Assembly (NCBI GenBank): GCA_947184155.2
Contig: CAMXCT020001691.1
Coordinates: 637,027-701,026 of the forward strand
Direction: 5' to 3'
DNA: 64,000 nucleotides
From: Cladocopium goreaui
Lineage: Eukaryota > Sar > Dinophyceae > Suessiales > Symbiodiniaceae
Of the stretch, positions 15,655 through 62,140 are shown piece by piece (the stretch's first letter is position 1; each line of letters starts with the position of its first letter). Both the position numbers and the translations under genes were made by a program. A model generated the notes under the pieces. The model worked only from the letters and a program-made list of their open reading frames with translations, searched no databases and was not told the DNA's origin.

Positions 15655-15670
15655 TCAAATTAACCATCAT
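15655..15670. repeat. Target-site duplication, left copy
   Basis: TCAAATTAACCATCAT occurs here and again, perfectly, at 28630-28645, on the two sides of the retroelement. A perfect 16-bp direct repeat at the edges of a LINE-type ORF set is the expected product of target-primed insertion. Confidence 0.85.
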
Positions 15671-15734
15671 GTTTCCTGTTTCCTGGATGTCTCGCCAAGT
15701 CAGCTATTGCGGAAATGGCCAGAGATCCAACGTC

Positions 15735-18700
15735 TTATCGAATCTCAAGGTGGGTCATTGCCACCATTGGCATCTCACAATCACGGGCAGGGACAGGGAG
15801 TCGGAGAAGCGCTCGACCATCCCGCCGTGCTGGCTGTGTGAGACAACTACCATACCATCGTTCGCACCTATCCAGTCGAAAATCCGACCATGGCAGCCAC
15901 ACACAAGCTGCATGGAGCAGCAAAAATTCAGATTGGGGTCGAACGAATTGATGAACAAGACCCAAGTTCCATGACGCCGCTATCTCTTTGAGCATATGTG
16001 TGAACCACCTGCACCTCAGTTTGAAAGAAATTCCAACCATACTCGCCGCCGGGCGTGTGGCCGGGTCAATCCAAGTCTCAAAATGCAGTGGTCCTCCCTC
16101 TCCTGTGCACAACATGTAGTCAGTGTAGATTTGGTAAAAACTGATCCATCCTGGTGGTCTGTTGGCCTCTGTTAACCCCTGAAGAAACCAGCGTCCCACT
16201 GACAAAACCAATCTCTCACCATACTTCTGACACAGATGGCGACCAATCCACGTTACCTCCGGTGGAGCCCTCCAAATGGGCTGCTTGGAACGTGGAGGCA
16301 AAATCACTTCCCTGACCTCGTCAGGTTCATGGCTTTCTGTTTGGACTTCTTGTTGATGGAAAACAACTGCTCGGCTGATAGACAGTTGAACTGTGCGAAC
16401 CTGTTGTGTGATGAAACCTGCAAACTCAAAATCACGCATGAAAACATGATGAAGATCCCAAAAACTCTGTGGTCGGAGAACATGAGCAGCACGCGCCGCA
16501 TGGTCGACCAAACTGTTGTAAAGAAAGCACCATGATTCCAAAGCTGAGACACATCCCTGAGGGTCACTGTGGGCCGCTACCTTGGTAATGACAACCATGC
16601 CAGGGCCACCGTCACCTAGCAGAACACAAAGCTGAGACCAGAGGTCAAAATGTCTACAATTGGCTGTTGGTTTCCATTGTTTGCGGAGGATGGCACGCAC
16701 ACGGTTAACAACCCCCTTGCAATCACACCAAATGCGCACTTTCAAACGACTATGGTGGGCAATCCTAACTGCTTCCAAAACAGCTCGGAGCTCCGCCCGG
16801 TAGGCAGACTGTAGAAGACCCTGAAGTGGACTAGCGGCAAGGACCCTAGACCCAGGATTGGTGCCCACGTCATGTGACGAGGCTTGCACAACGGCCCAAC
16901 TGGCCAAGCGCCCTGCATGTGTCGGGTGGTGGCATGAGCCATCTGTGAAGAGGTCCAGCCAGCCGTCATGTGGTGGGTACATGTGAGTCAGGTCAAAAGG
17001 GGTCTCTTGTATGTGCAACAAGGCTTGCATATACTGCTTCCAACACGCTGGTCGCAGGCCCCACCCATAGCTTGTCAAAAATTCAGGCAAAAAGGGAATC
17101 ATGGCCCAAACGTGGGGATCCATGTTGGCCCTGTGCACCTCAAAGGCCTCACATTGCCAAAACCTATGGTATCTTGAGTCAGTGCATTGGCAAAATTGAC
17201 ACATGTTACCATCTTCTTCCTGCCAGTATCTTTGTGCATCGCGGGTGAAGTGTGCACCATTGAGCAATTTACGGCAAAGCCCAGCATCTTCAGTGGGTTG
17301 TGAGGCAATCCACTGACGCGTGCCTTGCACATCAGCAAGGTGCAGGTCCTTAAACCCGGCTCGGTGGGCAACTTGCTGTGACACTACCCCCTGCCACGAG
17401 AGTTGTGCCCTGAAGTCGATTTCTGCCATCGTGCAAGCAAACAAACAAAAGGGACCAAGAAAGTCTTCAAGCAGACCGTCAGCACGAATTGACCACCCCA
17501 GGACCTGGAGCCTGGACAACAAAGTCTGGGTGATGGAGTTACCGGGGATATCCGTCCCCTCCCAAGCAAGTCGCGTCAAAACAGGTTGGACAAAGTCAAG
17601 TGCTGCACAATCGCGCACGCTTCTGATGGTTTGCATGACTGACCAATAGCCCGGGTCACAAGCTGGATGTTCGATCAAACCTAATTGAATCCAGGGGCTG
17701 CACCCTGCCCCGTCGGCCTGTAACCCACGGACAGCTCCAGATCTCAACCGCTGCAGGATGCTACGACCAAGACCTGTAGAGGCGACTCCATGAAGACCTC
17801 TAGGCCAAGCCGCTGTCGTCAATGCGCGGACTTTGATTTTGTACGGGCATGGTGACAACCTTAAACGATCCCACATGTCATGCAAAGCATTGACTCGAGT
17901 CTGAAGCGTGTGATTGGTGTGTTGGAGGGTCAATTGCAGGTGCGCTCCAAGGTTGCGCCCTCCATGCTCCACTCGATAGCCTTGTTGTTTTAACTGGCGT
18001 CTGCCCTCAGCCGATAAGCACCAAACATACGTCTTCTTCTTATCAAGTTGCAGGTCAACCTTGGCACAAAAAGCCTCGAGGCGGTTCATGGCGCTTTGGA
18101 CATACTGGGGGTCTCGGATCAGCAACTGCCAATCATCAACAAAACTGAGCGTGGTGCAGTGAGGGCTGAGCTCATCCATCCACCAATGGAGGACACAGTC
18201 AAGCAAGATCATTGCCAGGACTGAGAGACCATCCCCTTCTGCAAAGCCTGTGACCGACATGGTGGCAGGGGACAAGTTTTGGCGAACTTCAAAATGTCTG
18301 GCCATCTGCATCGTACATCCAGCCCAGGCTGTCAAAACATGCATAGGCAGTCGCAGCATACCAGCCAATTCAAAAATCACTGGACGACTCAAACAATTGA
18401 ATGCCTTTACGATGTCACCTACTACCCCCGCCAGGGGAATGCCACAGTCATGACTTTCTTCAATGGTCAGAAGCATCGAATGCCATACCTGGCCGGCATG
18501 GCTGCCTACCCTGGATCCATGGAGACCTGGTGGGAGCCACTCATCAAGGGCAGCAATGATGTTGCGGGAGTGGTATGAAGACCACAGCCTGTACCCAATG
18601 CTCAGCACAGTTATAGGACGGAAATCAGCCGCAGTGCGCGGTTGGGTAGTTTTGGCAAGTGACACTACCCGTCCAGCTGTGAGTTGTGCAGGCCATTCCC

Positions 18701-20873
18701 CAGTGGCTTCTGCCAAGGAGTAAAACTGACACATGCTTTGGAGGACTCCATCCGGCATTGCACGGTAATCAGCCAATGTAACGCCATCTAATCCCTTGGA
18801 GGTTTTGGCCTTTTTCCTCCTGATTTCTTGCTTGAGGCAACCTAGTGTGAGTGGGGGAGAAGAACATGGCACAGGGCGTGCATGGCGTTTGGCAAAGGCC
18901 AGGATATCATGCCACTGGCTCATTGGGACATTCTCATGGCGTTGCCATCTCGCAGCCCATGATTGTTGAAATTCCGCAAAAAGTTCTTCAATGGCACCTA
19001 TCATGCGTACTAGCGTACACTGGGACCCACAGGCGTCTGACACAGGCTGGTCAACCCAAACCCACGTATCTTCATAGTGCACAATGTTCAGCGGTTTACC
19101 ATCAACAAAAATTGGTTTGGTCTGGTCCCACTGACATGCTTTGTCGAGATGAAGACATTGGGTGTCGGCATCCACATAACAAATCTTACTTTGGAGGGGT
19201 TGAGTGAGCAGGTCAACACTGTCCATTCCCAAACCTCGAATGTCTTGGAAGATCAATTGCGGGGATGCTAGCCGTTTAGCCTTGGCAGTGGCACGGCTGG
19301 TGGCATGCAGTTTCTTTTCCAGTTGGCGAAAAACCAAAACAAAGGAGGCATACATGGCTTCGGCCACAGGCTGATCAGGTGGGACCCTTGGGCATTCATA
19401 AGGGGCCTCATGAACAGAGTGTTCAATCGTACTCCACCATTCAGCGAAGCCGCAATCAAACCCTTTGGCCCTGGTGATGGCACTCCAAACATTGGCTGCG
19501 TGACATGGGTCAGCTTCAGGTTTCCTAGACCGCACAAACCGCACGTACGCCTGAAGTCGGCGTGCTTGCCGATACCAGTGTGCATGCTGGACCGACATAC
19601 CTGTGAACTGGGGAGCCAAGTCACCGGATCGAGGTGCTTTGAGTGGAGCATGTGATTGTCCTACAACTTTCTTAGGTGCCAGCGTTTGGGCACGGCCACA
19701 ACTGGCCTTTGGGAGTGGCACAGGACTCGCCTCGGAGGCAGCCTTCTCCACATCATGCCAGAGATCAGCATACCGTCTGGTGGCATGGCCGCTGGGGACA
19801 GGTTCAATGGCATCAAATTCAAAGGATGGCCACTTCATCTCTTGGGGTTGCTTCCACACAAACCGGGGGACAGCATGAACATTACCCCGGAACCAGGCAT
19901 GTAACACACTGTGGTCTGGCCATGTTGTTGCGTCAATGTCGACAGCAGTCAACAATGTCTGCAATTCAGGTGATATGTACATGAAGTCAACTCTGGTGGA
20001 GCATTTGCAGGTGTTCTGAATCGCATGGCCCCACCTGTCTGAGGCAATGGATTGGATGTCACGAAAACCTGCTGATTCAAGAATCTGAAAGGCGGCCACA
20101 TCATTTTCCTTCAAGTTGAAGTCCCCTGCGACAACCCTCAACCCAGTAGAGTAGAGGCACACCTGCGTGGCAACCGCCCTGAGCAGTTGGTCATTGTGAT
20201 GAAGGTGCTGAGGATGCCACGTGCCTGCAGATTCTCCATACATGGTACCCAAGGTGATCCACATGTCGTTGAGCAAGGTGGATGTCACAAGCACCCGACT
20301 GGAGGCACTGATGTCAGGATCCCACGTTACTGGCAAGGCCCTGGTCGGGTGCTTCGATAGTGCCGCAACCCCTTTCCATCCACCGGATGTTTGAGAATGA
20401 GCACGCACAGGGACAGGATGTCCAGTGATCAAATACCGATATGGCGACTTAGTGACTCGAAGACCTCTGCGAAATGATGAAACTGATTTAGTGGTCAGAT
20501 GAGTTTCAGCAATGGACCACAGGTCGCCATGGCTCAAATACTGATTAATCACCTGAGCTTTCCCCGCCAACCCAGATGGATTGAAACACCCAATACAAAA
20601 ATCTTGGGACTTCGCAGTCGCTCTGGGACCTGGGTGAAGTGCTTCCCCAAAACGCACCCCTAGCACCAGGGTGAGAACATACAAAATTGAAGTGAAACTG
20701 TGGGGCTTGGGTCGGGTTGGTCTGCACGGGCTGGTAAGGCAAGTGCTGCACACAGCCAGGCCAAGACAAAACTGAGCAAAAACGATGGGGTTCAGCAGGC
20801 AAAGGAGGCCAACAGCAACAAGGGCAAGAGCCCACAGTACCCATGCATGGAGGCTACCAAACAGTCCTGCCAC
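15735..20873 (-). CDS. Retroelement ORF with AP endonuclease, reverse transcriptase, zinc finger and RNase H (1712 codons)
   Basis: Residues 1-80 are strongly hydrophobic (about two membrane-like segments), then RFGEALHPGP leads into an exonuclease-endonuclease-phosphatase domain with IAETHL, GDFN (about 250), VDFMY (about 297) and a terminal DH (about 320). This domain would nick target DNA. The RT follows, with GDIVKAFN (about 820) as motif A and SFVDDW (about 912) as the catalytic motif C. A C-x2-C...H-x4-C finger near 1220-1240 (MCQFCQC) resembles the zf-RVT of LINEs. RNase H has FTDGS (about 1308), AELRAVLEA (about 1360), WCDCKG (about 1382) and VAAHSD (about 1432). About 250 C-terminal residues are unassigned. 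There is no nearby ATG; the frame is open from an in-frame TGA at 20883-20885, so it may be made by readthrough of the preceding ORF. It ends at TAA. Confidence 0.9.
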   Translation of the reverse strand: MAGLFGSLHAWVLWALALVAVGLLCLLNPIVFAQFCLGLAVCSTCLTSPCRPTRPKPHSFTSILYVLTLVLGVRFGEALHPGPRATAKSQDFCIGCFNPSGLAGKAQVINQYLSHGDLWSIAETHLTTKSVSSFRRGLRVTKSPYRYLITGHPVPVRAHSQTSGGWKGVAALSKHPTRALPVTWDPDISASSRVLVTSTLLNDMWITLGTMYGESAGTWHPQHLHHNDQLLRAVATQVCLYSTGLRVVAGDFNLKENDVAAFQILESAGFRDIQSIASDRWGHAIQNTCKCSTRVDFMYISPELQTLLTAVDIDATTWPDHSVLHAWFRGNVHAVPRFVWKQPQEMKWPSFEFDAIEPVPSGHATRRYADLWHDVEKAASEASPVPLPKASCGRAQTLAPKKVVGQSHAPLKAPRSGDLAPQFTGMSVQHAHWYRQARRLQAYVRFVRSRKPEADPCHAANVWSAITRAKGFDCGFAEWWSTIEHSVHEAPYECPRVPPDQPVAEAMYASFVLVFRQLEKKLHATSRATAKAKRLASPQLIFQDIRGLGMDSVDLLTQPLQSKICYVDADTQCLHLDKACQWDQTKPIFVDGKPLNIVHYEDTWVWVDQPVSDACGSQCTLVRMIGAIEELFAEFQQSWAARWQRHENVPMSQWHDILAFAKRHARPVPCSSPPLTLGCLKQEIRRKKAKTSKGLDGVTLADYRAMPDGVLQSMCQFYSLAEATGEWPAQLTAGRVVSLAKTTQPRTAADFRPITVLSIGYRLWSSYHSRNIIAALDEWLPPGLHGSRVGSHAGQVWHSMLLTIEESHDCGIPLAGVVGDIVKAFNCLSRPVIFELAGMLRLPMHVLTAWAGCTMQMARHFEVRQNLSPATMSVTGFAEGDGLSVLAMILLDCVLHWWMDELSPHCTTLSFVDDWQLLIRDPQYVQSAMNRLEAFCAKVDLQLDKKKTYVWCLSAEGRRQLKQQGYRVEHGGRNLGAHLQLTLQHTNHTLQTRVNALHDMWDRLRLSPCPYKIKVRALTTAAWPRGLHGVASTGLGRSILQRLRSGAVRGLQADGAGCSPWIQLGLIEHPACDPGYWSVMQTIRSVRDCAALDFVQPVLTRLAWEGTDIPGNSITQTLLSRLQVLGWSIRADGLLEDFLGPFCLFACTMAEIDFRAQLSWQGVVSQQVAHRAGFKDLHLADVQGTRQWIASQPTEDAGLCRKLLNGAHFTRDAQRYWQEEDGNMCQFCQCTDSRYHRFWQCEAFEVHRANMDPHVWAMIPFLPEFLTSYGWGLRPACWKQYMQALLHIQETPFDLTHMYPPHDGWLDLFTDGSCHHPTHAGRLASWAVVQASSHDVGTNPGSRVLAASPLQGLLQSAYRAELRAVLEAVRIAHHSRLKVRIWCDCKGVVNRVRAILRKQWKPTANCRHFDLWSQLCVLLGDGGPGMVVITKVAAHSDPQGCVSALESWCFLYNSLVDHAARAAHVLRPQSFWDLHHVFMRDFEFAGFITQQVRTVQLSISRAVVFHQQEVQTESHEPDEVREVILPPRSKQPIWRAPPEVTWIGRHLCQKYGERLVLSVGRWFLQGLTEANRPPGWISFYQIYTDYMLCTGEGGPLHFETWIDPATRPAASMVGISFKLRCRWFTHMLKEIAASWNLGLVHQFVRPQSEFLLLHAACVWLPWSDFRLDRCERWYGSCLTQPARRDGRALLRLPVPARDCEMPMVAMTHLEIR

Positions 20874-20885
20874 CCCACATCGTCA
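20874..20885 (-). other. In-frame TGA joining the coiled-coil ORF to the RT ORF
   Basis: The upstream ORF ends ...RPREDHE followed by TGA, and the same frame continues as CGA TGT GGG GTG GCA GGA CTG into the RT ORF. The first in-frame ATG of the RT ORF is over 200 codons further on, inside the endonuclease. Options are stop-codon readthrough, a non-ATG start (for example the GTG), splicing, or a recent nonsense mutation. Confidence 0.6.
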
Positions 20886-23800
20886 TTCATGGTCCTCCCT
20901 CGGGCGTTTGAGCAGGCTGCGTATCTGAGACATCTGACTCTCGAAGAGAGCCTGCAGGTTCTGTTGCTGGGACTCAATGTGTCCTCTGAGCTCAGCACCT
21001 TGCGTTTGCAGTTGGTGTTGCACTGAACCAAGCTGAGCAGTATGTCGTGCAGCATGGTCAGTGACTGTGGCCTCAAGCTGGGCATGTTTCTGCATCATGG
21101 TGCTCATTTGCTGCTCAAGGGCCTGGACCCGATCCGGGACATCATCAACTTCCATCTGGTTGGAGCTAGCTGGGAGGCTGGCAAGGACCGCTTTTTGGAT
21201 CTTGGATTCAAGTTGCTTCAGTCCCTCTGATGCATCTGTTTGGCACATGCTTGAGGGTGCATACCATCCCCAGGGGTCAGCAGCAGCCCAAAGATCCGGC
21301 AAAGTTGTTTGCGAGGTCTGGGTGTTGCACAGGGCTATTGTAGCTGGCGTAGCCACAGGCCTTGCTTTGGTCTCTTTGGCATCCCTGGGGCCCTTGTGTT
21401 TGGAAATCATGACATCTCCGTGTCCCATTGATAGCAGTGAGGCTGGGGGATCATCAGTGGCCTGGATGAGCCACATCGCCCCTTTGTTGTCAATTGAGGC
21501 AAGTGGCTGCAAGGGCCGAGCTTCCCAGTCAATCTGCTGCAGGGCTTTGGTCAAGCTGCCTCGGTCAGTTCCAAAGGGAAACGGTCCTGCGAGGAACTGT
21601 TGTTTGGGTCCTGCAGGCAGGTACACTGCATCTGGTCTGACTGCTTTAGACAGATCACTGGCATGGATCGCCAGGGTGCGTAACCCAATGCGATCACCAA
21701 CCCGGGCAAGACCAATAGCCGTGGGATTGGTTTGGCACAGGTGATTCAGTGCAGCTGGCTGCAGGCGAGTCAACCACACAATGGCATAATCCTCATGGAC
21801 TGTCCGGGAGTCCAGGGATCGAGGCTCGACATAAATGCCGGCTGTTCCACTGAGCTTAAGTAGGGGCAACACTAGGCAACTTGGCACTCGGATGCTGACC
21901 GCAAACATAGTGGCACTGCTGGGAGGCTCCGGCTTGTAGCCATTGCGCAGGTATTGACGGCGCCAAACATCAAGTAAGGCATCTTTGGTGTCAACCTTTT
22001 CGTGATTGTGCCAATGTGGACATTGGCATCCGGGTTCACGGCACATTCGCAGCAACGGTACATGGTGAACAACATACTTCATCGGACCTTGGGTCAGGTG
22101 TTCCCATGTACCCTCAATTTCATCTCTGAAAACTGTGATTCTCAATGTGCCAACGTCAACGGCATCAATGTGGATCTTGCGAGAGGCCTGGGTTTTCTCA
22201 ACCAAACCAGAACCTATCTGAACCATGACCATGTCAATGAGCATCGGTTCTTGGTTAACCACACAATGGCAGGGCACTGTCACAGCTTGGTGTGGCAGCG
22301 AGGTCGTCACCTCAGCCAAGGTACATTGCAGAACTAGCAGTGCAAGCGGCAAGTTTGAAACTGCTTTCCCCTGTGCCAAGTAGGGTGCTGCTTCAGCCTT
22401 AGTGACAATCACAACGCCTTCAGTGGCAGGTCCCACAGCTTTCAAGGGTCTTTGGTGCAGTGGCTGGGAATTGCTCTGGAAAACACCCTGTGAAATCGCA
22501 AACTTGGATGGGTCAAGAACAACTGGCGGTTGTTCAGGCGGTGGTTTCTTGCTCTTCTTTCCACCTTTGGGTCTTCCGATATCACCTTTGCCTGCAGCTT
22601 CAGTGATCTTCGACTGGAGTTCAGCAGGCAGCAGGAACTGGAACTTGGATTGGTTTCCCAATGTTTTGAGTTGTTTCCAAGGAATCCTGGAGCCTAAGGC
22701 AGTAAGCACAGGCTGTGCTCCAATGGCCCGCACGGCTGCTTTGGCTCTTGTCCCTGCATGTTCGTGGGGGACTCCATGGTCAATCAACACTGGGATCAAC
22801 TCCTGCTCAGCTTGAGTCGCAAGGCCATTAGCCCAAATCAAGGGCCTGACCCACATGGCATGGTGTTGAATGCCTTCTTGAAACTGAGCTCGGGCAGTGT
22901 CATGTTGAGCCAACACTTCAGCATGTGTGGTCGGAAGGGGTCTTCCGAGCATGATTCGTGCAATAAAGGCAATGGCCAGCGGGCCACAGCAGTCATCAAC
23001 CTCCAAGTTCTGAGGCCACTTCACATGATGAAACCCTGATAAGCGCAGCGCACTGGCTAAGTGTGCAAAAACCTGGGCAAGACAAGCATGATTGCTGGTT
23101 TGATGATCCCATGTATGAACAGTCAACTCTCCCTTTCCTACCACCATGACCATCGGGATCCAGTGGGATTGGACAGGGGCAACCGCAATCACAACTTCAG
23201 GCAATGGGCAGTGGGAATTGGCCCACGCTGCACAGCTTTTCCCTTCAGTCTGGATCCAATTATCCAGGAGCAAGGGGTCAAGGATTACCCAATTCGGGTA
23301 AGAACCACTCTGTTTGAGTTCATCTCTCAATTGGGTCGACAGGTTGGCAAGTTGCCAACGGATCTCATCATCAGCCCAGAAGTGGCCCTGGGTTTCCAGG
23401 AGCTGGGAACGTTCTTGCACTGACATCGGCTGTGCCTCTAAATTGGGGTTACCTTCAACCGGCACCTTGTGCTGGCAAGAGCACTGGTCAGTTGTTGCAT
23501 GGCTCTGGGCATCCAAATGACCATGTTCAAAAATTCGGCCACCTTTAAATGGGCCTGTGGTCGCTGGTGTGTTCTGTACTGCATTTGACTCATCAAGACC
23601 GCACATGTTCCATGAAATAGGAGACATCATGTTTCCATGGGCATCACCAGTTACGTCGGGCAACCTCTGCGTGGGCATTAGGTAGGGGAGTGGCCCACAT
23701 TCCCCATGGTGGAGACGAGCTCCATCATCATGACGGCAAGACAGGGGGACATCACTAACCAGACAGGCATGTTCATGAAGGGACATGGACCGGACTTCGG

Positions 23801-25196
23801 CACTGGACTTGGATGAGGCGACAGTGGCTGGGTACACGGCACCTGCTGCCCTACACTCCACAGGTTCAAGGTTGCCGGCAGACACGTTGGCGGTTCCACT
23901 CATCTTTGGCACTGCTTCCTTGCTACTAGTGGGCAATTTGAAGGGGAGTGGCCCACATTCCCCAGAAGAGCACACTGCGTCCAACTGGTGGTCTGCCAAT
24001 GGTGGTAAACCACGCCCTCGGCAAAAGCATTGGTTGATGGGTGCAAGGCTGTTGGCATCCAAGTGAGCACGGTCAAGGTGTCGTACACCCGCACATGAGC
24101 CAGTGGTCATTGCATTAGTCTGGATGACATGAGGCTCATCGCGGCCACCCATCTTACTGGACATGAGGGACATCACCCTTCCATGTGAGTCAAACTTCAT
24201 GCAGGGCAACCCCTGCGTGGGCATTAAGCAGGGGAGTGGCCCACATTCCCCAGGATGAAGCCGAGCTCCATCAGCTTGACGGCAAGACGATGAGACATAA
24301 TCAACCTGACAGGCATTGTGAGGAGAGGGCAGGGACACGACATCGACTTCAATACGACTCTCAGACGGACCGGCTTTGGCTGGAGACAAGGCACATGCTT
24401 CCCTAACCTCCTCAGGTGGTGGAGGGCCAACCGGCAATGTTGTGATTGCCCCAACCTTGGGCACATCATTCTTGCCACTGGTGGGCAATTTGAAGGGGAG
24501 TGGCCCACATTCCCCAGGAGAACGCACTGCATCAAACTGGTGGTCTGCCAGAATTGGGAGACTATGCAGCTGGCACGGGTTGTGGTTGGGATCATCCAAT
24601 CTGGTGGCATCCAAATGACCGCTTTCAAGGTTACGACCACCCGCACATGGGTCTGTGGTCTTCGGGGTGATCTGGCATATGGGCGACTCCTCAAGATCGC
24701 ACCTGTTCCACATAATAGGGGCTGTCACACGTCCTTTTGCATCACTTGTCGTGCAGGGCAACCCCTGCGTGGGCATTAGGTAGGGGAGTGGCCCACATTC
24801 CCCAGAATGAGACCACGCTCCATCAACATGACAACACGACAAAGGGACATCACAAACCTGACAATCAGGCTCCTGAAGGTGCAGAGACCGGACGTCGACA
24901 CTGTGCATATACGAGCCAACATGGTGTGGGGACAAGACAAATGCGGCAGTTCCCTCCTCAGTGAGTGTGTCGGACTGGTTGGAACCCTGAACTAAGGTCT
25001 GGAACTCCTCAACAGGTCCAGCAACAGTTCCTCCATCATCTTGGGAAGGAGTCCCATCCGAGGACCAAAGGCCCAGCATTTGAAGGAATGGTCCAACAGG
25101 CATGGCAGCAATTACAGACAAGGCTACGACCCCAATCTTGGCAAGGTTTTCCCCTCCAGTGACAAATCCATCTGGACGGCTCTTTTCCCTAACCAA
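20883..25196 (-). CDS. Retroelement ORF: repeat region, second Ulp1-like domain, Cys/His cluster, coiled coil (about 1437 codons)
   Basis: No ATG start is seen; the frame is open from about 25285 and overlaps the preceding ORF. Residues about 130-510 hold five ECGPLP-x3-PT motifs, alternating GECGPLPFKLPT and GECGPLP(Y/C)LMPTQ types. A peptidase-like domain follows at about 600-790, with WADDE, SHW (candidate His), HTWD (candidate Asp), PQNLEVDDCCG (candidate Gln and Cys) and WANG. The His-Asp-Gln-Cys order is that of Ulp1-like (clan CE) cysteine peptidases. A basic Lys/Gly/Pro stretch follows, then a C-x4-C-x-C-x2-WH cluster near 1050 (CREPGCQCPHWH) that could bind zinc or RNA. The last 100 residues (from about 1332) form a Gln-rich coiled coil ending RPREDHE, like the multimerising part of LINE ORF1 proteins. 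Peptidase activity is inferred, not shown. Confidence 0.75.
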   Translation of the reverse strand: MVREKSRPDGFVTGGENLAKIGVVALSVIAAMPVGPFLQMLGLWSSDGTPSQDDGGTVAGPVEEFQTLVQGSNQSDTLTEEGTAAFVLSPHHVGSYMHSVDVRSLHLQEPDCQVCDVPLSCCHVDGAWSHSGECGPLPYLMPTQGLPCTTSDAKGRVTAPIMWNRCDLEESPICQITPKTTDPCAGGRNLESGHLDATRLDDPNHNPCQLHSLPILADHQFDAVRSPGECGPLPFKLPTSGKNDVPKVGAITTLPVGPPPPEEVREACALSPAKAGPSESRIEVDVVSLPSPHNACQVDYVSSSCRQADGARLHPGECGPLPCLMPTQGLPCMKFDSHGRVMSLMSSKMGGRDEPHVIQTNAMTTGSCAGVRHLDRAHLDANSLAPINQCFCRGRGLPPLADHQLDAVCSSGECGPLPFKLPTSSKEAVPKMSGTANVSAGNLEPVECRAAGAVYPATVASSKSSAEVRSMSLHEHACLVSDVPLSCRHDDGARLHHGECGPLPYLMPTQRLPDVTGDAHGNMMSPISWNMCGLDESNAVQNTPATTGPFKGGRIFEHGHLDAQSHATTDQCSCQHKVPVEGNPNLEAQPMSVQERSQLLETQGHFWADDEIRWQLANLSTQLRDELKQSGSYPNWVILDPLLLDNWIQTEGKSCAAWANSHCPLPEVVIAVAPVQSHWIPMVMVVGKGELTVHTWDHQTSNHACLAQVFAHLASALRLSGFHHVKWPQNLEVDDCCGPLAIAFIARIMLGRPLPTTHAEVLAQHDTARAQFQEGIQHHAMWVRPLIWANGLATQAEQELIPVLIDHGVPHEHAGTRAKAAVRAIGAQPVLTALGSRIPWKQLKTLGNQSKFQFLLPAELQSKITEAAGKGDIGRPKGGKKSKKPPPEQPPVVLDPSKFAISQGVFQSNSQPLHQRPLKAVGPATEGVVIVTKAEAAPYLAQGKAVSNLPLALLVLQCTLAEVTTSLPHQAVTVPCHCVVNQEPMLIDMVMVQIGSGLVEKTQASRKIHIDAVDVGTLRITVFRDEIEGTWEHLTQGPMKYVVHHVPLLRMCREPGCQCPHWHNHEKVDTKDALLDVWRRQYLRNGYKPEPPSSATMFAVSIRVPSCLVLPLLKLSGTAGIYVEPRSLDSRTVHEDYAIVWLTRLQPAALNHLCQTNPTAIGLARVGDRIGLRTLAIHASDLSKAVRPDAVYLPAGPKQQFLAGPFPFGTDRGSLTKALQQIDWEARPLQPLASIDNKGAMWLIQATDDPPASLLSMGHGDVMISKHKGPRDAKETKARPVATPATIALCNTQTSQTTLPDLWAAADPWGWYAPSSMCQTDASEGLKQLESKIQKAVLASLPASSNQMEVDDVPDRVQALEQQMSTMMQKHAQLEATVTDHAARHTAQLGSVQHQLQTQGAELRGHIESQQQNLQALFESQMSQIRSLLKRPREDHE

Positions 25197-25219
25197 AAAG
25201 GGTTGGATCTCGGCATTGC

Positions 25220-27067
25220 TCAGAACGGAATTTGGACCTTGGTTGGTGGCAGGAATGCGATCAGCATTGGGTGCAATGCTCCATTAGCCCACCTCCACGG
25301 TTTGGTACATGTTTCATGAGCCTGGACAGCCTCAGCAAATCGATTGCGGAGCAGTGCATGGAAGGTCTGGACATCTGCCTGATTGTCAGGAAGCATACGG
25401 TCATGAAGCATGTAGGCAATGAAGGCCACCGCCATGGCACCGCATCCTTCATCCATCGGGAACATTCGGTACAAACGGGCAGTCTGATGGCCCACAAACC
25501 CCATGGCAGATGCCAGGCGTGTAAAAATGGGTTCCAGACTGGTGTGGTCATTCGTTGAGGAGTCCCACGTGTGGACATGCAAAACCTGGCCTCTAGGGAT
25601 CATCACAATGGGTACCCAATGAGTATGAACAAGGGCAACAGTTGCAACTACACGGGGGGAGGTGCAGTACTGATTTACCCACGTCTCACAATTTTCACCC
25701 GCAGTGGCTACCCACCCTGCCATCAACAGCGGATCAATCATGGCACAGCGATCCAACACAGCCTGAGCACTTTCGTGGTGGGCCTTAGTCGTGAGCAGGG
25801 AGACGAGGTGCCATCGCAGTTCATCATCAGCCCAGACCATACCTTGGTGTTCCAGTATCATGCATCGATCCTGGGCGGTCACAACCTGACTCAACATGGA
25901 TTGCAGGACTGTTTGAGTGGTGGTATAGGAACATCCTAACCGCATGAGACCTGCAGCATCAAGAGAGACCATTGGACAATTGTTAACACGAGGTGAAACA
26001 AGCCCTAGATGGGGGTTCGAACCTGCCGAATGCATCTGGATGCTACCGGGGACCGATGCAACATCTTCCATGGACCTATCTACTCCGGCACTTGCGTCAG
26101 TGGGCAATTTGCAAGGGAGTGGCCCACATTCCCTTTCAGCATGGCTCAAGCCATCTTGATCACCATCTCGGGATGCATCAGGCACTGAGATTCTAGCCTC
26201 ACAACCTAGAGTGACCAAGGCATCTTTGGCCTTGGTAAGCTCATTTCCAACTTCCCTTGGGCTGACTGGACAGGGGTTGGATGTTGCAGCTTGAATGGGT
26301 CGGGAACCGTCAGTGGGCAATTTGAAGGGGAGTGGCCCACATTCCCCTTGAAGTTCATGGCTTGCAGCATGGGAATCATGGCAATCAGGGGGATGCCCGG
26401 CTGGCATCGCATGTTCTTTCACAGGTACACTGGCAATCTGACGAGACTGGACTTCGGGGGACATGACACCGGCAGACACTGCAGAAGGCATGGGGCCTGA
26501 CATCGACGACCCTTGTCGTGGGACATACAGACAAACCTGGTGACCGGCATCTTGAGTGTCAGAGGCAACATCAGGACCTGCTTGGAGTGGCCCCTGGCCA
26601 AACGTTCCAGGAAATCCTTCTTGGCCACTCGTCATGTCAAAAGTGTGCATCTGTGCAGGGCATGGGACAACACACAGCTGAGCCAATTGACCTGGTACAA
26701 TGACTTCTTGCATGGCCCATCGTGATCCATCAGACTTAAACACGGTGACTGCTGACCAATCGAAACCATGCAACTGACCTTCAGCCTCAAGCAACTGTTG
26801 AACTGTTGTGCCAGGGGCAATGCGTACATGGGCAACAGCTACATCTGGTGGATATAAGACCGCGGCACAATCCGGGGGAACATGGACTACATGAAAAACT
26901 GGTGGTGGACCTGAGTCTGTCACAATTTCAGGTTCAGGTTCATCACTGGCAACACTGACCGTCTCAAGGCGGCCTTCAGCATCGACATGCATGGAGCCAA
27001 ATGGAATCCTGTCATCCGGTGGCAAAGGTGGCGGGCGACTCTTGAAGCTGACGCAACACGCCAGCAA
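25220..27067 (-). CDS. Retroelement ORF with first Ulp1-like peptidase-like domain (about 615 codons)
   Basis: The frame opens at about 27088, overlapping the end of the methyltransferase ORF by about 75 nt. A Pro/Glu-rich start is followed by a small domain around VRIAPGTTVQQLLEAEGQL, perhaps a beta-grasp fold (weak). Two ECGPLP-x3-PT motifs lie at about 240 and 315. The peptidase-like domain runs about 410-590: WADDE, THW (His), HTWD (Asp), DEGCG (Cys), then WANG. It aligns along its length with the domain in the next ORF, showing tandem duplication; the Gln of the presumed oxyanion hole appears to be replaced (LYRMFPMDEGCG). The reading stops at TGA (25220), but the similarity to the other copy seems to continue in the next frame, which supports a frameshift here. 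Confidence 0.7.
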   Translation of the reverse strand: MLACCVSFKSRPPPLPPDDRIPFGSMHVDAEGRLETVSVASDEPEPEIVTDSGPPPVFHVVHVPPDCAAVLYPPDVAVAHVRIAPGTTVQQLLEAEGQLHGFDWSAVTVFKSDGSRWAMQEVIVPGQLAQLCVVPCPAQMHTFDMTSGQEGFPGTFGQGPLQAGPDVASDTQDAGHQVCLYVPRQGSSMSGPMPSAVSAGVMSPEVQSRQIASVPVKEHAMPAGHPPDCHDSHAASHELQGECGPLPFKLPTDGSRPIQAATSNPCPVSPREVGNELTKAKDALVTLGCEARISVPDASRDGDQDGLSHAERECGPLPCKLPTDASAGVDRSMEDVASVPGSIQMHSAGSNPHLGLVSPRVNNCPMVSLDAAGLMRLGCSYTTTQTVLQSMLSQVVTAQDRCMILEHQGMVWADDELRWHLVSLLTTKAHHESAQAVLDRCAMIDPLLMAGWVATAGENCETWVNQYCTSPRVVATVALVHTHWVPIVMIPRGQVLHVHTWDSSTNDHTSLEPIFTRLASAMGFVGHQTARLYRMFPMDEGCGAMAVAFIAYMLHDRMLPDNQADVQTFHALLRNRFAEAVQAHETCTKPWRWANGALHPMLIAFLPPTKVQIPF

Positions 27068-28628
27068 GGCAATGCTCCGACATCAGAAAATCCCACTGTT
27101 CAGACCGCAGGATAACATCGATCCTATCCAGAACATATGGCTCCCACCTTCGAATGGCTTCAGTGTGTTCATGTGCGCGCACATAATCCGGATAGGGCCA
27201 GATCGCCTGGCTTTTGGCAATCAGGAGTGTTCGTAGGGCCTGCAAATGATCAATGGGTGTGAATTGGCGTATGCCCCTTTGCAGTTCCTCAAAATGACCA
27301 ATGATATGGGCTCCAATCCATGCAGCCTGCAGTGGGGATGCAATCTGTCCAGCTGCCGACAACGTCAACAAAGGATCTTCACCGAAATCAATCGTTGGGT
27401 CTTGCCCCACCAAAATGCCGCATTCATATGGGTGAATGTGGCGGTACCTGCATTGCCCATTCTGATCAGGAGCTGATTTCACCACAACCCCAAAGAGTCC
27501 TCGTTGTTGAAGCCTCTGTGAGGACAATGGTCCTGAGCGGCATTTGCATGGGCAAGCACGGAGCTGAGAGCCCCAAGCATGTAAAGGACATGGCAAGACC
27601 CCTGATCGATTGATGGCATATGGACACCCATCCTCATGATCAACCTGAAATGCATCCAATTCATGTTCCAACAAGGCAAGGTCATCCTCATGATTGGAAG
27701 GCCACCTGATGATGTAAGGCAAAACATGTTTAATCACCGTGCAATCATGCAGTGTCGGCCATGATTTAAGGCGGATAGGGCCCAGGGCAGGGGCACTCAG
27801 AATGCACCACCATCGATTGCGTGCACATGGCCAAACATGCTGGAGTCGCAAAACTACGTCTGAGAAATGGAACCCTGTTTTCTGGCAAAAGGTCCGGATG
27901 TGATGCATCACATATGTGTCAGTCTGGGCTGGTTCAACGCACTCGATCACCACTACCACCGACCTAAGGTAGTGCGCACAAGCCAAAGTGGCTGGCAAGC
28001 TCTGCGAACGTGGATCCAAGCCACTGCGCCCATCCCCCAAAACTGAATATGGCTGACATGACACGCCTGAGCTGAGCGTAGTAGACCGTGGACACTTTTC
28101 CCACAGTGCAGCCACAGTCGACAATTCCGTGATGTCTCCACATACTGAATGAATTGGCATCTGTGATTGGTAAAGCCCTATCATCAGTGGGTTGACATCA
28201 CAACAGACCTGTGGTGAAAAACAAGTGGAGAGAAGACCCTGGCCTAACCCCCCATAACCAGCACACAGTTCAACGACCTCACGTACTGAATCCCAGCTAC
28301 AAGCATCGTGATGAAGGATGTATGAATCCTGATCAGCAACCAACAATGGTCGTGGCATGGGTCTAGCAACCCTGACATTCAACAGAGAGTATGTGAGACG
28401 TCCCTGTGGCACCGCTCCAGAAAAGGAGAAGAGCTCCTTCCCAATCACCGTGCTCATAAGATGATTCACTGTCGATCCATCAAAAGTCACCATCGATGCC
28501 ACGCATGAAATGCGTTCCCCTCCAACAAGGGCCCTGATGCATGGAGCATACTCAACCATGGCTACTACGAAAACCTCAAAGTTTCGGCATGGACAGTTGG
28601 ACCCGCGGGTAGGTACTTTGAGCCCCAA
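27012..28628 (-). CDS. Retroelement-encoded C5-cytosine DNA methyltransferase (about 538 codons)
   Basis: Enzymes of this family transfer a methyl group from S-adenosylmethionine to carbon 5 of cytosine in DNA. The conserved motifs appear in order: motif I ELCAGYGGLGQG (about 121), motif IV GVSCQPYSVLGDGRSGLD with the catalytic Cys (about 192), motif VI IECVEP (about 229), motif VIII ARNRWW (about 270), motif IX-like RHIHPYECGILVG (about 402) and motif X-like AAGQIASPLQAAW (about 425). A Cys-rich insert, CPLHAWGSQLRACPCKCRSG, falls in the target-recognition region. The first ATG is at 28559 (MVEYAPC); the frame is open to the element edge at 28629. The ENV of motif VI is ECV, but its Glu is kept. 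It overlaps the next ORF in a +1 frame. It sits inside the same target-site duplication as the RT, so it is part of the element and not a host gene. Confidence 0.88.
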   Translation of the reverse strand: MGLKVPTRGSNCPCRNFEVFVVAMVEYAPCIRALVGGERISCVASMVTFDGSTVNHLMSTVIGKELFSFSGAVPQGRLTYSLLNVRVARPMPRPLLVADQDSYILHHDACSWDSVREVVELCAGYGGLGQGLLSTCFSPQVCCDVNPLMIGLYQSQMPIHSVCGDITELSTVAALWEKCPRSTTLSSGVSCQPYSVLGDGRSGLDPRSQSLPATLACAHYLRSVVVVIECVEPAQTDTYVMHHIRTFCQKTGFHFSDVVLRLQHVWPCARNRWWCILSAPALGPIRLKSWPTLHDCTVIKHVLPYIIRWPSNHEDDLALLEHELDAFQVDHEDGCPYAINRSGVLPCPLHAWGSQLRACPCKCRSGPLSSQRLQQRGLFGVVVKSAPDQNGQCRYRHIHPYECGILVGQDPTIDFGEDPLLTLSAAGQIASPLQAAWIGAHIIGHFEELQRGIRQFTPIDHLQALRTLLIAKSQAIWPYPDYVRAHEHTEAIRRWEPYVLDRIDVILRSEQWDFLMSEHCLAGVLRQLQESPATFATG

Positions 28629-28629
28629 C

Positions 28630-28645
28630 TCAAATTAACCATCAT
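28630..28645. repeat. Target-site duplication, right copy
   Basis: TCAAATTAACCATCAT matches 15655-15670 exactly; the flanking bases on both sides differ. It marks the 5' edge of the minus-strand retroelement. Confidence 0.85.
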
Positions 28646-47922: not shown

Positions 47923-49209
47923 AAGTCTTCAAATGCTTCGAGTAAAGAGATCGTTCCCGAGTGGTGGAGAAATTCTCGAGCTCCCTGGGTCCCTGAACAC
48001 TCCAAAGTTGGGAACTTGAAACTCCTGGCCCAAAGATGCCTGGGACAAGCTGCAGGGGTGCAAGACGGAGAAAACCTAACGGCTGTAGCCAAGCAGGTGC
48101 AAGTAGCTGCATCAGACGCAGCCTTTGCTTTGTGGTGTTGTGGAGGCAACGGAGTAGTTACCTGGGGAGATCCATACAGAGGTGGTGACTGCTCCGCCGT
48201 TCGAGATCAGCTGAGGACGGCGCAGCAGATTCAGGCCACACATGGCGCATTTGCTGCAATCTTGGCAGATGAATCCGTGGTTGCCTGGGGTGAGCCACAC
48301 CGCGGTGGTGACTGCTCAGCGGTTCAAGATCAGCTCAGAAATGTGCAGCAACTTCAGGCTACGGCCGAGGCATTTGCCGCAATCTTGGCCGATGGGTCGG
48401 TGGTTGCCTGGGGAGATACAGACTGGGGTGGTGATTGTTCTGCTGTTCAAGATCAGCTCAGGAATGTGCAGCAACTTCATGCCACAACTGGGGCATTTGC
48501 CGCGATCTTGGCAGAAGGATCAGTAGTCAGTTGGGGCGCTCCAGAGTGGGGTGGTGACTGCACAGCAGTTCAAGAGCAGCTCAAGAATGTGCAGCGGCTT
48601 CATGCCACAGACATGGCATTTGCTGCGATCTTGTCCGATGGATCAGTCGTTGCCTTGGGAGATACAGACTGGGGTGGTGATTGTTCTTCTGTTCAAGATC
48701 AGCTCAAGAATGTGCAGCAACTTCATGCCACAACTGGGGCATTTGCCGCGATCGTGGCAGAAGGATCAGTAGTCAGTTGGGGGGATCCAGAGCATGGTGG
48801 TGACTGCACAGTAGTTCAAGACCGGCTCAAGAATGTGCAGCGTCTGCAGGCAGCAAAGAACACATTTATAGCGATCTCGGCCAATGGATCAGTGGTTATC
48901 TGGGGCCTTCCTGAGTGCTGTAGTGACTGCTTGACACTTCAAGATCGGCTGATGAATATGCAGCAACTTCAGGCCACAGTCATGGCACTTGCTGCGATCT
49001 TGTCCGATGGATCAGTCATTGCCTGGGGCGAGCCAGAGCACGGCGGTGACTGCTCGGCAGTTCAAGATCAGCTCAAGAATGTGCAGCAACTTCATGCCAC
49101 AGACATGGCATTTGCTGCGATCTTGTCCACTGGATCAGTCGTTGCCTGGGGCGATCCAGACTGGGGTGGTGACTGCACAGCAGTTCAAGACCAGCTCCAG
49201 TACTTGTAG
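47923..49209 (+). CDS. RCC1-like repeat protein, single exon
   Basis: The frame is open from 47923 with no ATG near its start, so the true start is upstream through an intron or at a later codon. From about 48150 it holds about eight 41-residue repeats of the form GDCSAVQDQLRNVQQLHAT then AFAAILADGSVVAWGDPDWG, and it ends at TAG. This is the RCC1/HERC-like beta-propeller repeat very common in dinoflagellates, usually annotated loosely as HERC-type ubiquitin ligase or RCC1 protein. No HECT or other catalytic domain is present here. Repeats 6 and 7 are the most divergent (SDCLTLQDRLMNMQQLQATV). The whole repeat block is uninterrupted, unlike the intron-rich genes around it. The propeller probably mediates protein binding; the partner is unknown. 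Confidence 0.75.
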   Translation, partial: KSSNASSKEIVPEWWRNSRAPWVPEHSKVGNLKLLAQRCLGQAAGVQDGENLTAVAKQVQVAASDAAFALWCCGGNGVVTWGDPYRGGDCSAVRDQLRTAQQIQATHGAFAAILADESVVAWGEPHRGGDCSAVQDQLRNVQQLQATAEAFAAILADGSVVAWGDTDWGGDCSAVQDQLRNVQQLHATTGAFAAILAEGSVVSWGAPEWGGDCTAVQEQLKNVQRLHATDMAFAAILSDGSVVALGDTDWGGDCSSVQDQLKNVQQLHATTGAFAAIVAEGSVVSWGDPEHGGDCTVVQDRLKNVQRLQAAKNTFIAISANGSVVIWGLPECCSDCLTLQDRLMNMQQLQATVMALAAILSDGSVIAWGEPEHGGDCSAVQDQLKNVQQLHATDMAFAAILSTGSVVAWGDPDWGGDCTAVQDQLQYL

Positions 49210-54900: not shown

Positions 54901-57900
54901 ATGGCAAGCCATGGCTATGATGATGATGACTTCGACATTGTCGATGCAAATGAATGGAACCAATATGACTCTTATGCAATGAGAAGAGCACCCCAGCATA
55001 CACAGATTCATATGACGCAACAGATGACCACAAAGGTTGCTCCAGCCTATGATGGGCGAACCAGCTTCTTTGCTTTTGAGGATGCAATTGATGACTGGTG
55101 TGACATTACGGAGTTAGAACCAGAGAAACGTGGTCCAGCATTGCGCAACAGACTGGAAGGAGAAGCTCAACAATACAAGAGGCTATTGGATAGAGAATTA
55201 CTCAGGGATCCCTATGAAGGAGTGGCTTATTTCAAAAGATTTCTACGACCTCATTTCATCAAAGGTGCCCAGAACGTGTTCTTATACCGTTTCATGCAGT
55301 TCATGAAGTTCAACAGAGGAACCATGGATCTTCAGAAGTGGATGACTAGATTTCAACTCACTGGCAATAGACTTATTGAGTCTTGGATGGATTTACTTCC
55401 AGAAGTAACAGTGACTAGTCCTGAAGCAATCCTGTTTGTTCAACAACGACGTCAAGAACATGAACGAGATCAACAAGAAAGAGCTGAAGTAGCAGCAGCC
55501 TCAGGAACACCCCATGTAGCTGTTCCTTGGTCAGATGAACTGGCACTAGCGGCATTCAGACAATTTCAGGAAGATCGTAGACAAGTACAGCGACAAGCAT
55601 TCCCACTGGGTGAAAATTTGCTAGCATTGATTTTTGTAAGTCTAGCTGACCTGAGTCAAGATCAGAGAAACACACTCACAAGTATCATGACACATCGTGG
55701 ACGAACCCTCGATCGATACAGCATTCAAGAACTACGTGACCTGTTTTTGGAAATGTTTTGCACTACCAAAACAGCAGTTGACAATCCATTGATGCAACCC
55801 TCTGGCATGGCACAGAGAAGATCTTTCCTCGTACTGGATGAAGGTGAATTAGAAGGAACCGACGGCTATTGGGCCGAAGATGAAGAAGACGGCGCAGAAG
55901 GATTCCTGGATGCTTTAGAAGATGTTTTCTGGGTTTATGATGACGCCAACTTCACATGGTATCAGAGAAGGTTCCAAGGCAAATACATCAGACGAGGCAA
56001 AGGTAAAGGAAAGAGAAAAGGAAAAGGAAAAGGCAGAGGAGGACGAAGGTTCTTCAAATCAAGAAAAGGAAAAGGCCGAGGAAAAGGAAGAAGAAAAGGC
56101 CGTGCTCACATGGTGAGTGAAGAAGATTATGAAGATGAATGGCAAGAAGATGAATGGAATGAAAACTATGACGGCTATTGGGCCGATGATCAAACCTGGA
56201 ATGAAGGCTATTGGGCCTATGATGATCTGTACTACATGGATGAGTATGGATACTTCCAGAGGAAAGGAAAAGGAAAAGGAAAAGGAAAGAAAGGCAAGAA
56301 AGGCAAGGATGATGATGGAAAAGGAGGAAAGCCAGGAGATGGAAAAGGCAAGTCGAACTATGTTCAACCTCAGACCACATCAGCTCCTGCCATACAGAAT
56401 CAACCAACTCAACAAGCTCATTATTCTTCTGCAGCTTCAAGTTCTGGTCATGGTTTCTTTTCATTTGGAACAACTGAACCAGCACGTGTTGATGTTGCAG
56501 AGACAGAGCCAGCACGTGTTGATGTTTTGACATCCACGTATGCAGCACAAGATGAACAACGACGTACTCGTCGTGGAGGACAGAACCAACGTGATGCAAG
56601 AGCACATCAAAACAGGAGAGAAATGAAGAGATTCCCTGTTCTGGTTGGAGAAGTTGGTGCACTACGACAAGGTGTACAACAACGTCCAGCTGTAGTGCCC
56701 AGGCAAGTTGGTCTTCAAGAAGGTGAGGCTTCATGGAAGCCATTGGCAGAAGGCACATCATTGTTTTCATATGGATGCTCTACAGAGATAGAGGAACCAT
56801 CACAGCAGAGTGCTTTTTCATTTCATACTGTACAAACTGATCTGGCATGTGAGAATGGACTAGCTTTTCACACAGAGAATTCTGCACCACCAACTGTGTG
56901 TATTCTGGATCTTGGATGCACAAGAGCTATGGGCTCTCGACGAGCAGTTGAAGCATTTTGCAGATATGTTGACTCACATCCCAACAGTGGACTCTGGTAT
57001 GAAATTCAGCCAACAAGTTCAAGATTCTTCTTTGCAAACTCACAACAATCAAAATGTACTGAGAAGCTCGTGATATTCATGTATGATCATGGATGGAACA
57101 CTCAGTTTACAGAATTCGACATTGTCGAAGAAGGTGATGTCCCGTTATTGATGTCACTTCCACAGATGAGAAACCTTGGATTTCAATTTGAACTTACTCC
57201 AGAGAAGGCTTATTTGTCCTGTGCACGTATTGGCATGAGAAAAATGGTTTTGAGGACAGCCATTAGTACTCATCTCATTCTCGACCTACAAGATGTAGCA
57301 TGGTACATGAGCCAAGTTCATTTCAAGACTCCACAAGTCAAAAGTTTCTATTCACAACACGATCACTTTGAGTACAGCCAGATTGCTGTCAAACAAGATG
57401 ATCATGAAGGAGAAGCTTTGGTGACTGGTGACTACTGGCAGGTTGATCCACTACGTCGTGAACTCATCAGGCACCACAAGGACAAGAGAATGAACTTACA
57501 TGAGATGACTCGATCAGAGAAAACTCCAATTCCAAAAGATCAACTTCTTGATGAGAGAGAAACCCACATGGAATTCCAGAAGAGCAAGAAGAAGGTTCTT
57601 CACAAGGACAACTGGCGCACTGAGAAGAAGAGGTTTTCTGAACAGAGTGAAGAGTTCTGGAAGGGCAAGACCATCTACAAGATCAAGGAGGACTACGTGA
57701 TCCCAGATGACATTGTCAGAAGTGACATTGATCGTGCAAAGCCCTTTCGTGGAAACATTGATGATCTTTTTCACCCTGAGTCAGCCTCTTCAGTGCCATC
57801 AGGTGTACAGAAGAAGAAGCCAAGCTCCTTAAAGAAGGAGGAAGGCAAACCGATTTCAAATGGACCAGGCTCGAAAAAGATTGAGGTAGGTCCACCTGCA

Positions 57901-58977: not shown

Positions 58978-59581
58978 AGACAGAACACAACTCGAGTTGC
59001 AAAGGTTAGCACTGAGGGCACATCAGGAAGCCAGACAAGCTGCTGACCTCAGACATGACATGGCCAAACGAACAATGCCATCAGATGGACCTTACAAACC
59101 AGGTGACAAGGTTTTCGTTTGGAGTTCCCCTGTCAATGCTAATGCTATTGCTTCAAAGGCATGGAAGAAGGAAAGATGGATCAGAGGTACTGTTATCTCT
59201 CAGGAAGGTGCTATGGTCAATGTTCATGTTGACAACGCAGTCATGCGTGTTAATCAATCGAAGGTGAGACGTGACCATGATGAATGGCATGATGTTGCTG
59301 TTCCTGGACTTGACACATCGGAACCTGTTCCACTTGCAGTTGAAGATGAAGATGACTATGAACCAGACATCGCTGAATATGCTGAAGCCTACTTAGGTGA
59401 ACAAGCTCACTGGTTTTGTCAAACTGGCAAATGTGATGTTGTGGAACTCTTCAGTAGCAACACTGGTCTTAGTTGGCACATGGCACGATTGAACATGAAG
59501 GTTGGTGAACCCATTGATCACAAGCATGGTTGGAGTTTCAACAGCAAAAAAGAAACAAAACCAAGTTTGGAAACAACTTGA
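58965..59581 (+). pseudogene. Copia Pol segment: integrase C-terminus and start of a methyltransferase-like region
   Basis: In the second frame it continues LPEDRTQLELQRLALRAHQE then PGDKVFVWSSPVNANAIASK and GTVISQEGAMVNVHVDNAVM, a small beta-barrel-like region after the integrase core. It then reads CDVVELFSSNTGLSWHMARL, which resembles motif I of SAM-dependent methyltransferases, before a stop after the A-run at about 59546-59560. Confidence 0.6.
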
Positions 59582-61604: not shown

Positions 61605-62140
61605 CTTTCAGAGACAAGAGACGTCATAAGATTGACAACTATGTCACTGGCAGATGGGTGCTTACAATCAAGGTTGATAAGGATGGACAGTTCAAGAAGT
61701 TCAAGGCTAGATGGGTATGTAGAGGCTTTCAAGATGCTCAAAAGTATGACTTACAGACTGACAGTCCTACTGCTACCAGGTATGGTTTTCGTGTGGCATC
61801 TCAGCATGCAGCCTCGATGTACTGGGATTTACTCCACTTAGACTTGAAAACTGCCTTCCTTCAGGGGGAAACATACGACTTAGACCGCCGCGTTATCCAT
61901 GTTCAGTTGCCTACTGACATTGGTTTGCCTCCTTACTTGGTTGGTTTGTGCACTCGTTCCGTCTATGGACTTGCGGACGCACCACGTAGATGGGGGAACC
62001 GCCTTGACAAATTTCTGATTTCGCTTGGTATTCAACCTACAAGAGCTGACAGGTGTACATATGTATGCTATGATGGTGCTTTCAAGGAGCCAAAACAGGT
62101 TAGCTTGCTGACTCTGAGGCAACAGAACCAGCACCTGTGA
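61540..62140 (+). pseudogene. Copia reverse transcriptase, N-terminal part
   Basis: Reads DFTAMTFRDKRRHKIDNYVT, GRWVLTIKVDKDGQFKKFKA and LDLKTAFLQGETYDLDRRVI, the standard copia RT motifs (W-x-L-x-x-K-x-D-x-x-G, K-A-R-W-V, L-D-L-K-x-A-F-L-Q-G), then VYGLADAPRRWGNRLDKFL. The frame breaks after TYVCYDGAFK near 62095. Confidence 0.8.

Follow-up and report, generated by a model that had tools for sequence, protein, structure and literature searches.

Most CG sites in Symbiodinium genomes reportedly carry methylation, and the SymbioLINE-Dnmt elements described from these genomes (de Mendoza et al. 2018, PMC5890265) are long interspersed nuclear elements (LINEs) that carry a DNA methyltransferase (DNMT) in open reading frame 1 (ORF1), encode endonuclease (EN), reverse transcriptase (RT) and ribonuclease H (RNase H) in ORF2, are flanked by target-site duplications (TSDs), lack poly-A and occur in many copies. 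Why retrotransposons in Symbiodinium carry methyltransferases (MTases) is a question on which the element described here bears. It occupies the minus strand of positions 15671–28629 in a 64,000-nucleotide stretch of the Cladocopium goreaui genome (assembly GCA_947184155.2, contig CAMXCT020001691.1, 637,027–701,026; hereafter the window), and it resembles SymbioLINE-Dnmt in all these respects: the DNMT lies in ORF1 upstream of an EN-RT-RNase H ORF2, and there is a TSD and no poly-A. As a whole it is very probably best explained as a SymbioLINE-Dnmt-type non-LTR (long terminal repeat) retrotransposon propagating through target-primed reverse transcription. A sequence-only reading of the window had described a LINE-like element combining an MTase, two Ulp1-like domains, EN, RT and RNase H. 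That picture was incomplete: the MTase-LINE combination is already published (PMC5890265), and a 5' pseudoknot, an in-frame UGA and a sister clade targeting a miniature inverted-repeat transposable element (MITE) had gone unnoticed. These features set the element apart from SymbioLINE-Dnmt as presented in the main text of PMC5890265, which makes no mention of protease, peptidase, ulp, ribozyme, readthrough or MITE.

Some of these features have counterparts in other LINEs. A Ulp1-like domain is found in the NeSL/Utopia elements of nematodes (PMC4640811), where the protease is N-terminal in a single protein together with a restriction-like endonuclease; the passages of that paper covered here mention no MTase. 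R2, which targets 28S rRNA genes, has an HDV-like (hepatitis delta virus) pseudoknot at its 5' junction (PMC3774820), and L1Tc/ingi is a LINE with an HDV-like ribozyme (PMC4035085). The family of the window element differs from NeSL/Utopia in its apurinic/apyrimidinic endonuclease (APE)-type EN and in its one to three tandem modules, and it shares the 5' junction pseudoknot with R2; its sister clade is site-specific as R2 is, with the MITE as target. Like L1Tc/ingi it would have a ribozyme or ribozyme-like structure at its 5' end and a PGP-ending motif before the EN, both predicted here from sequence. L1Tc/ingi carries a 2A motif, whereas the GEAxNPGP/HPGP of the window family is not the full 2A consensus. 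R2 uses another endonuclease class and is not known to carry an MTase, and neither an MTase nor a Ulp1-like module is known from L1Tc/ingi. Titles and abstract starts of the open-licence literature gave nothing joining dinoflagellate LINEs with Ulp1 or HDV-like ribozymes and nothing on UGA readthrough in LINEs or on MITE-targeting LINEs, which is not proof of absence.

The element is bordered on both sides by an exact 16-bp direct repeat, TCAAATTAACCATCAT (Table 1). When random boundary-anchored pairs of junctions were drawn from the window flanks, 14 bp or more were shared in 1 of about 20,000 trials. Other copies were sought with the RT ORF in the source genome (1.17 Gb, 6202 contigs), which gave 27 scored matches of 2689 candidates; besides the window itself these comprise 26 RT copies, and upstream DNA from 20 of them was compared. 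The seven close-clade copies with both ends readable (an eighth, C5125, runs off its contig and stands outside this comparison) have flanking repeats of 16, 17, 15, 14, 16, 18 and 15 bp (window, C5807, C6192:398538, C1113, C6057, C4346 and C810, respectively), all different; the repeat of C6057 starts 8 bases beyond the shared 3' end. Since the repeat is exact, copy-specific elsewhere and rare among random junctions, it is taken as the TSD and the interval within it as the element, in agreement with the previous claim that one duplication encloses all the ORFs. The RT, the APE endonuclease, the TSDs and the lack of LTRs identify the window copy as a LINE, one element bounded by one duplication. 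Pfam models match RNase_H (E 6.7e-7), RVT_1 (E 1.8e-6) and Exo_endo_phos (E 6.9e-4), the last two slightly under Pfam's own cut-offs, and the catalytic residues sought are present in all three ORF2 domains. Most window-clade duplications carry an ATGRTGRTTT-like core, which that of C5807 does not. By eye, element 3' ends, at 15671–15715 (minus strand) in the window copy and also in L033–L038, terminate in a doubled 7–11-nt unit (AGGAAACAGGAAAC; GACAAAGATGG twice).

Four long minus-strand frames are visible in the window copy, and had been taken as four ORFs. The first three form a single ORF1 of 2585 aa in the sister copy C5807, to which window ORF1 is about 98% identical (146 substitutions in 7748 columns) and relative to which small indels split it at two places, near 27037 and near 25278. 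Because of this single frame, and because 51 of the at least 81 MTase matches listed in the genome sit in frames longer than 1500 aa, ORF1 is read from its sequence as one long protein and the element as having two ORFs; that the four frames of the window copy are separate ORFs is very improbable. The window copy is young and recently inserted, but its ORF1 is broken, either truly or by an error of the assembly. A structure model of the C-terminal part of ORF1 was poor outside a coiled coil.

The MTase and the Ulp1-like modules travel with the RT, as the sequence-only reading had proposed: upstream regions of the 20 relatives contain the MTase in 18 and the module in 19. One module is found in L013, L016, L017, L018 and L019, three in L032 and two in each of the remaining 13; a contig end cuts L019 off within ORF1. 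Among the matches listed genome-wide (at least 75 Ulp-like), 52 have a listed MTase match within 9 kb on the same strand, 42 of them in the same frame. Conversely, 35 of the 81 MTase matches listed have no listed Ulp match, and five of these 35 (C6192:593747, C2498, C4035, C285 and C1645) do hold modules when read. An RT copy lacking ORF1 and bearing an independent 5' boundary was sought among the 20 loci. The one copy without ORF1, L022 (on C1762), retains a 5' junction of the same kind, with the MITE, and the pseudoknot, which here lies some 140 bases upstream of ORF2 residue 87, and is therefore probably an internal deletion.

The MTase domain matches DNA_methylase (E 1.8e-7, window proteins) and is, by its motifs, a predicted C5 cytosine MTase. 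All 15 aligned copies show recognisable motifs I, IV, VI, VIII and X, which bears out the claim of a complete set as to the motifs and not as to their letters, since motif IV reads SCQP, ACQP or NCQP for PCQ and motif VI ECV for ENV. The catalytic Cys, the motif VI Glu and the motif VIII Arg pair are invariant, and dN/dS in a few pairs indicates that the MTase is constrained as strongly as the RT. Searched against the PDB, an 11-copy profile found the Dnmt2 tRNA methylase (4e-11) and HhaI (3e-10) about equally, so that the substrate class, DNA or RNA, is not fixed by this comparison. There is an appreciable, though lesser, chance that the enzyme acts Dnmt2-like on RNA (tRNA or element RNA) rather than on DNA: the tRNA methylase stands among the top matches and RNA methylation is raised in the discussion of PMC5890265, but the DNA enzyme HhaI scores nearly as well. 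Two results count against the overall explanation given above. The yeast test of a SymbioLINE DNMT showed no DNA methylation, a result its authors call inconclusive (PMC5890265), and CpG depletion, tried as a sign of self-methylation, gave no clear signal and was set aside (observed/expected 0.48 in the element, 0.62 and, downstream, 0.49 in the flanks). A conserved CxCxCR cluster and RHxHPxE, perhaps metal-binding, were seen in the MTase variable region (27132–28325, minus strand).

The modules are read as Ulp1-like on the strength of motifs and of a fold comparison, in which a low-confidence model matches the Ulp1/SENP (clan CE) fold. His and Cys are invariant in 24 of 24 modules, and residues outside them change 2–8 fold faster (dN) than the neighbouring domains. 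Several results weigh against this reading. Peptidase_C48, unlike the four other Pfam families proposed for the element, was not matched in the window proteins and reached E 0.05 in 1 of 24 module sequences; a module profile found no protease among PDB sequences; the fold model has a mean pLDDT (predicted local distance difference test score) of 56 from a two-row alignment; and the triad Asp is not invariant. The rate comparison covers few pairs with dS often saturated, and versus C1113 and C4346 the excess is only about 2–4 fold. A scan of viral contigs with the module profile gave 61 stretches that fit the pattern, none of which passed tblastn, and no relative was confirmed.

Because His and Cys are fixed while the rest outpaces its neighbours, the module may face the host, acting on ubiquitin/SUMO-like conjugates rather than on the element, a suggestion whose probability I put just short of even. 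A protease of the element's own, cutting an ORF1-ORF2 fusion and the linkers at GECGPLP in the manner of a viral gag-pol protease, seems rather unlikely. Readthrough would give a protein of about 4,300 aa for it to process, (G/R)ECGPLPxxxPT is repeated seven times in the linkers beside the modules (at 23666, 23924, 24212, 24476, 24764, 26095 and 26308, minus strand, in alternating forms), and proteases of African swine fever and monkeypox viruses are among the fold matches, clan CE including viral processing proteases. However, this motif occurs 0–7 times in relatives: three of the seven close loci (L017, L018 and L019, the last of them partial) lack ECGPLP, as do all 12 distant-clade loci that have ORF1. 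The module also evolves faster than the RT and the MTase. Still less probable is that the modules are inactive scaffolds that bind ubiquitin-like proteins; the fast change, the lack of clear Pfam support and the Asp shifted or lost in second module copies of the distant clade would suit a scaffold, but the invariant His and Cys would not.

In 20 of 21 cases (the window and 20 loci, the exception being L022) a UGA stands between ORF1 and ORF2, which share one frame. The pattern used to find the junction consisted of Glu, a stop codon, either Arg or Trp, one free position and Gly, and the PGP motif alone recovers the same 20 junctions. With two near-duplicates removed, all 18 junctions have UGA and all 18 encode the Gly by GGG, whereas variation is seen at most nearby four-fold codons. 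Genome-wide, a stop-blind pattern gave 11 exact matches, all with TGA, six of them in additional copies; its 17 one-mismatch matches comprise 9 with TGA and 8 without a stop, a number close to the 10 of a reversed-pattern control. UGA readthrough would be the simplest reading of this junction. Alternatively ORF2 is started anew after the UGA, by non-AUG initiation or by termination-reinitiation; reinitiation at ORF2 is known in LINEs and the junction of the window copy is ATG-rich. Yet ORF2 keeps the ORF1 frame without a conserved in-frame start, its first in-frame Met coming after 6 to 206 residues (inside the EN in the window copy), and a fresh start appears fairly unlikely. ORF2 begins (20625–20852, minus strand) with hydrophobic membrane-like stretches, then GEAxxPGP just before the EN.

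The 5' end of the element can be folded into an HDV-like pseudoknot. P1 starts one base past the duplication, after an A that is kept in 7 of 7 window-clade copies and that in the window doubles as the last base of the 16-bp repeat. P1, P2 and P3 are paired in 97.1% of 105 cells in the seven window-clade sequences and in 94.1% of 119 cells in the distant set (10 of its 12 sequences, leaving aside L031 and L022, whose 5' letters equal those of L020), while versions slid along the sequence pair in at most 56.2% and 50.0%, respectively; distant-clade P3 is paired in 82.8%. Each set contains 9 double-change cells, versus shuffled means of 3.0 and 2.5 (0 of 500 shuffles), and compensatory double changes fall in every helix in the window clade, and in the distant clade in P1 and P3 without P2; the distant clade has four pairs with double changes, a number matched by 5 of 500 shuffles. 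P1 is fully paired at the best place in a short stretch in 17 of 18 sequences with G-U allowed (permuted mean 8.5, maximum 14), in 12 of 18 with Watson-Crick pairs only (permuted mean 2.1, maximum 8), and in 13 of 13 held-out copies. The 8-nt L3 and a C-Y-R-A-A strip before P2' look HDV-like; a conserved G and U in L3 of HDV-like ribozymes have been described (PMC3774820). Other points speak against a ribozyme. The pseudoknot was read from the sequences on which it was scored, which favours it over slid versions; in the window clade, 51 of 500 shuffles matched the four doubly changed pairs; in neither set were further pair types more numerous than in shuffles; distant-clade P2 shows no double change; P4 looks short or missing; and Rfam searches of three regions gave no HDV ribozyme in any of them. 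The pseudoknot, whose structure the comparison supports, probably works like an HDV-like ribozyme, cleavage being the presumed part, but since the Rfam model is not matched it is not classed as a member. A spliced-leader origin of the 5' end, suggested by a resemblance to GGCTCAAG, was dropped because the distant clade lacks the resemblance and the pseudoknot accounts for the letters.

The sister, distant clade (L020–L029, L031 and L032, with L033–L038; L043–L055) has as its insertion target a single site within an abundant MITE, whose terminal inverted repeat is CTGGTTGGTGG. One MITE end forms the 5' flank in 12 of 13 loci, the thirteenth (L030) being masked, and in 13 of 13 held-out loci picked by the pseudoknot pattern (11 by script, two by eye with one substitution). 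Read by eye, the MITE resumes after the element in every one of the six loci that have 3' flanks, and the duplication, TGGTGGTTTGGAA(CA) or a CAA variant in L025, is exact in five of six and imperfect in L028. With up to 3 mismatches allowed, a 30-base MITE end matches the genome 7695 + 7872 = 15,567 times, against 0 for the control; whole MITEs are also seen. None of the 7 window-clade copies read sits in this MITE. In L033–L038 a doubled 3' unit runs, by eye, into the TGG of the target.

These features would fit the following path. Host transcription would run through an element copy, and the ribozyme at its first bases would trim the 5' end of the RNA. Ribosomes would make ORF1p and, by reading through the conserved UGA, an occasional ORF1-ORF2 fusion. 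The ORF2 EN would nick (A)TGRTGRTTT-like sites, where the RT would copy the RNA and leave 14–18-bp duplications; the duplications are observed and the mechanism is that of established LINE biology. The MTase may act within the particle of the element, targeting the element's RNA or newly made DNA, and the Ulp1-like module may act on host conjugates. A broader proposal, to which I give somewhat less than even weight, is that of a gag-pol-virus-like LINE lineage with a self-cleaving 5' ribozyme, an ORF1 of 1,800–2,600 aa in which a constrained MTase accompanies fast-changing deSUMOylase/deubiquitinase-like modules directed against host defence, programmed UGA readthrough, and a sister clade with a MITE safe haven. 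A protease-like module that changes fast around fixed His and Cys, beside a constrained MTase in one protein, offers a testable two-part host interface, and the pseudoknot, the UGA and the MITE target are handles on the expression and destination of the element.

Table 1. Features of the element in window coordinates.
Feature	Position	Strand	Basis or remark
Whole LINE copy, 12,959 bp	15671..28629	-	ends match homology breaks in close copies
TSD, 5' side of element	28630..28645	.	exact repeat; distinct repeats at other copies
TSD, 3' side of element	15655..15670	.	exact repeat; distinct repeats at other copies
5' HDV-like pseudoknot	28575..28629	-	P1 28625-28629/28596-28600, P2 28616-28622/28575-28581, P3 28612-28614/28601-28603
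ORF1, first ATG (28557-28559) to UGA	20883..28559	-	one frame in C5807, split here by indels
Predicted C5 cytosine MTase domain	27249..28304	-	catalytic Cys codon 28056-28058 (GVSCQPYS)
Stretch with linkers: seven 42-nt repeats coding (G/R)ECGPLPxxxPT and three 300-nt repeats about 550 nt apart	23474..26349	-	
Ulp1-like module A	25268..26020	-	motifs, fold comparison
Ulp1-like module B; His codon 23163-23165, Asp 23106-23108, Cys 22986-22988	22707..23504	-	motifs, fold model
C-terminal coiled coil of ORF1	20991..21155	-	sole confident part of structure model
UGA between ORF1 and ORF2, common frame	20883..20885	-	
ORF2	15735..20882	-	first in-frame Met 206 residues on, within EN
HPGP (NPGP in most relatives), 2A-like place after hydrophobic N-terminal stretch	20625..20636	-	
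APE-type EN domain	19899..20600	-	Pfam Exo_endo_phos and catalytic residues
RT core (FVDD)	17997..18629	-	Pfam RVT_1 and catalytic residues
RNase H domain (D-E-D-D)	16560..16952	-	Pfam RNase_H and catalytic residues
3' untranslated region, ending CAGGAAACAGGAAAC, without poly-A	15671..15734	-	close-copy comparison

Elsewhere in the window, a run of six ORFs on the plus strand (54901–63823) includes a match to RVT_2 (61601–62140, E 1.7e-16) and a long ORF of 1358 aa that is unmatched; from its sequence, the run is probably a disrupted Copia-like element. Another plus-strand ORF (48016–49209) contains RCC1-like repeats (E 5.7e-19).

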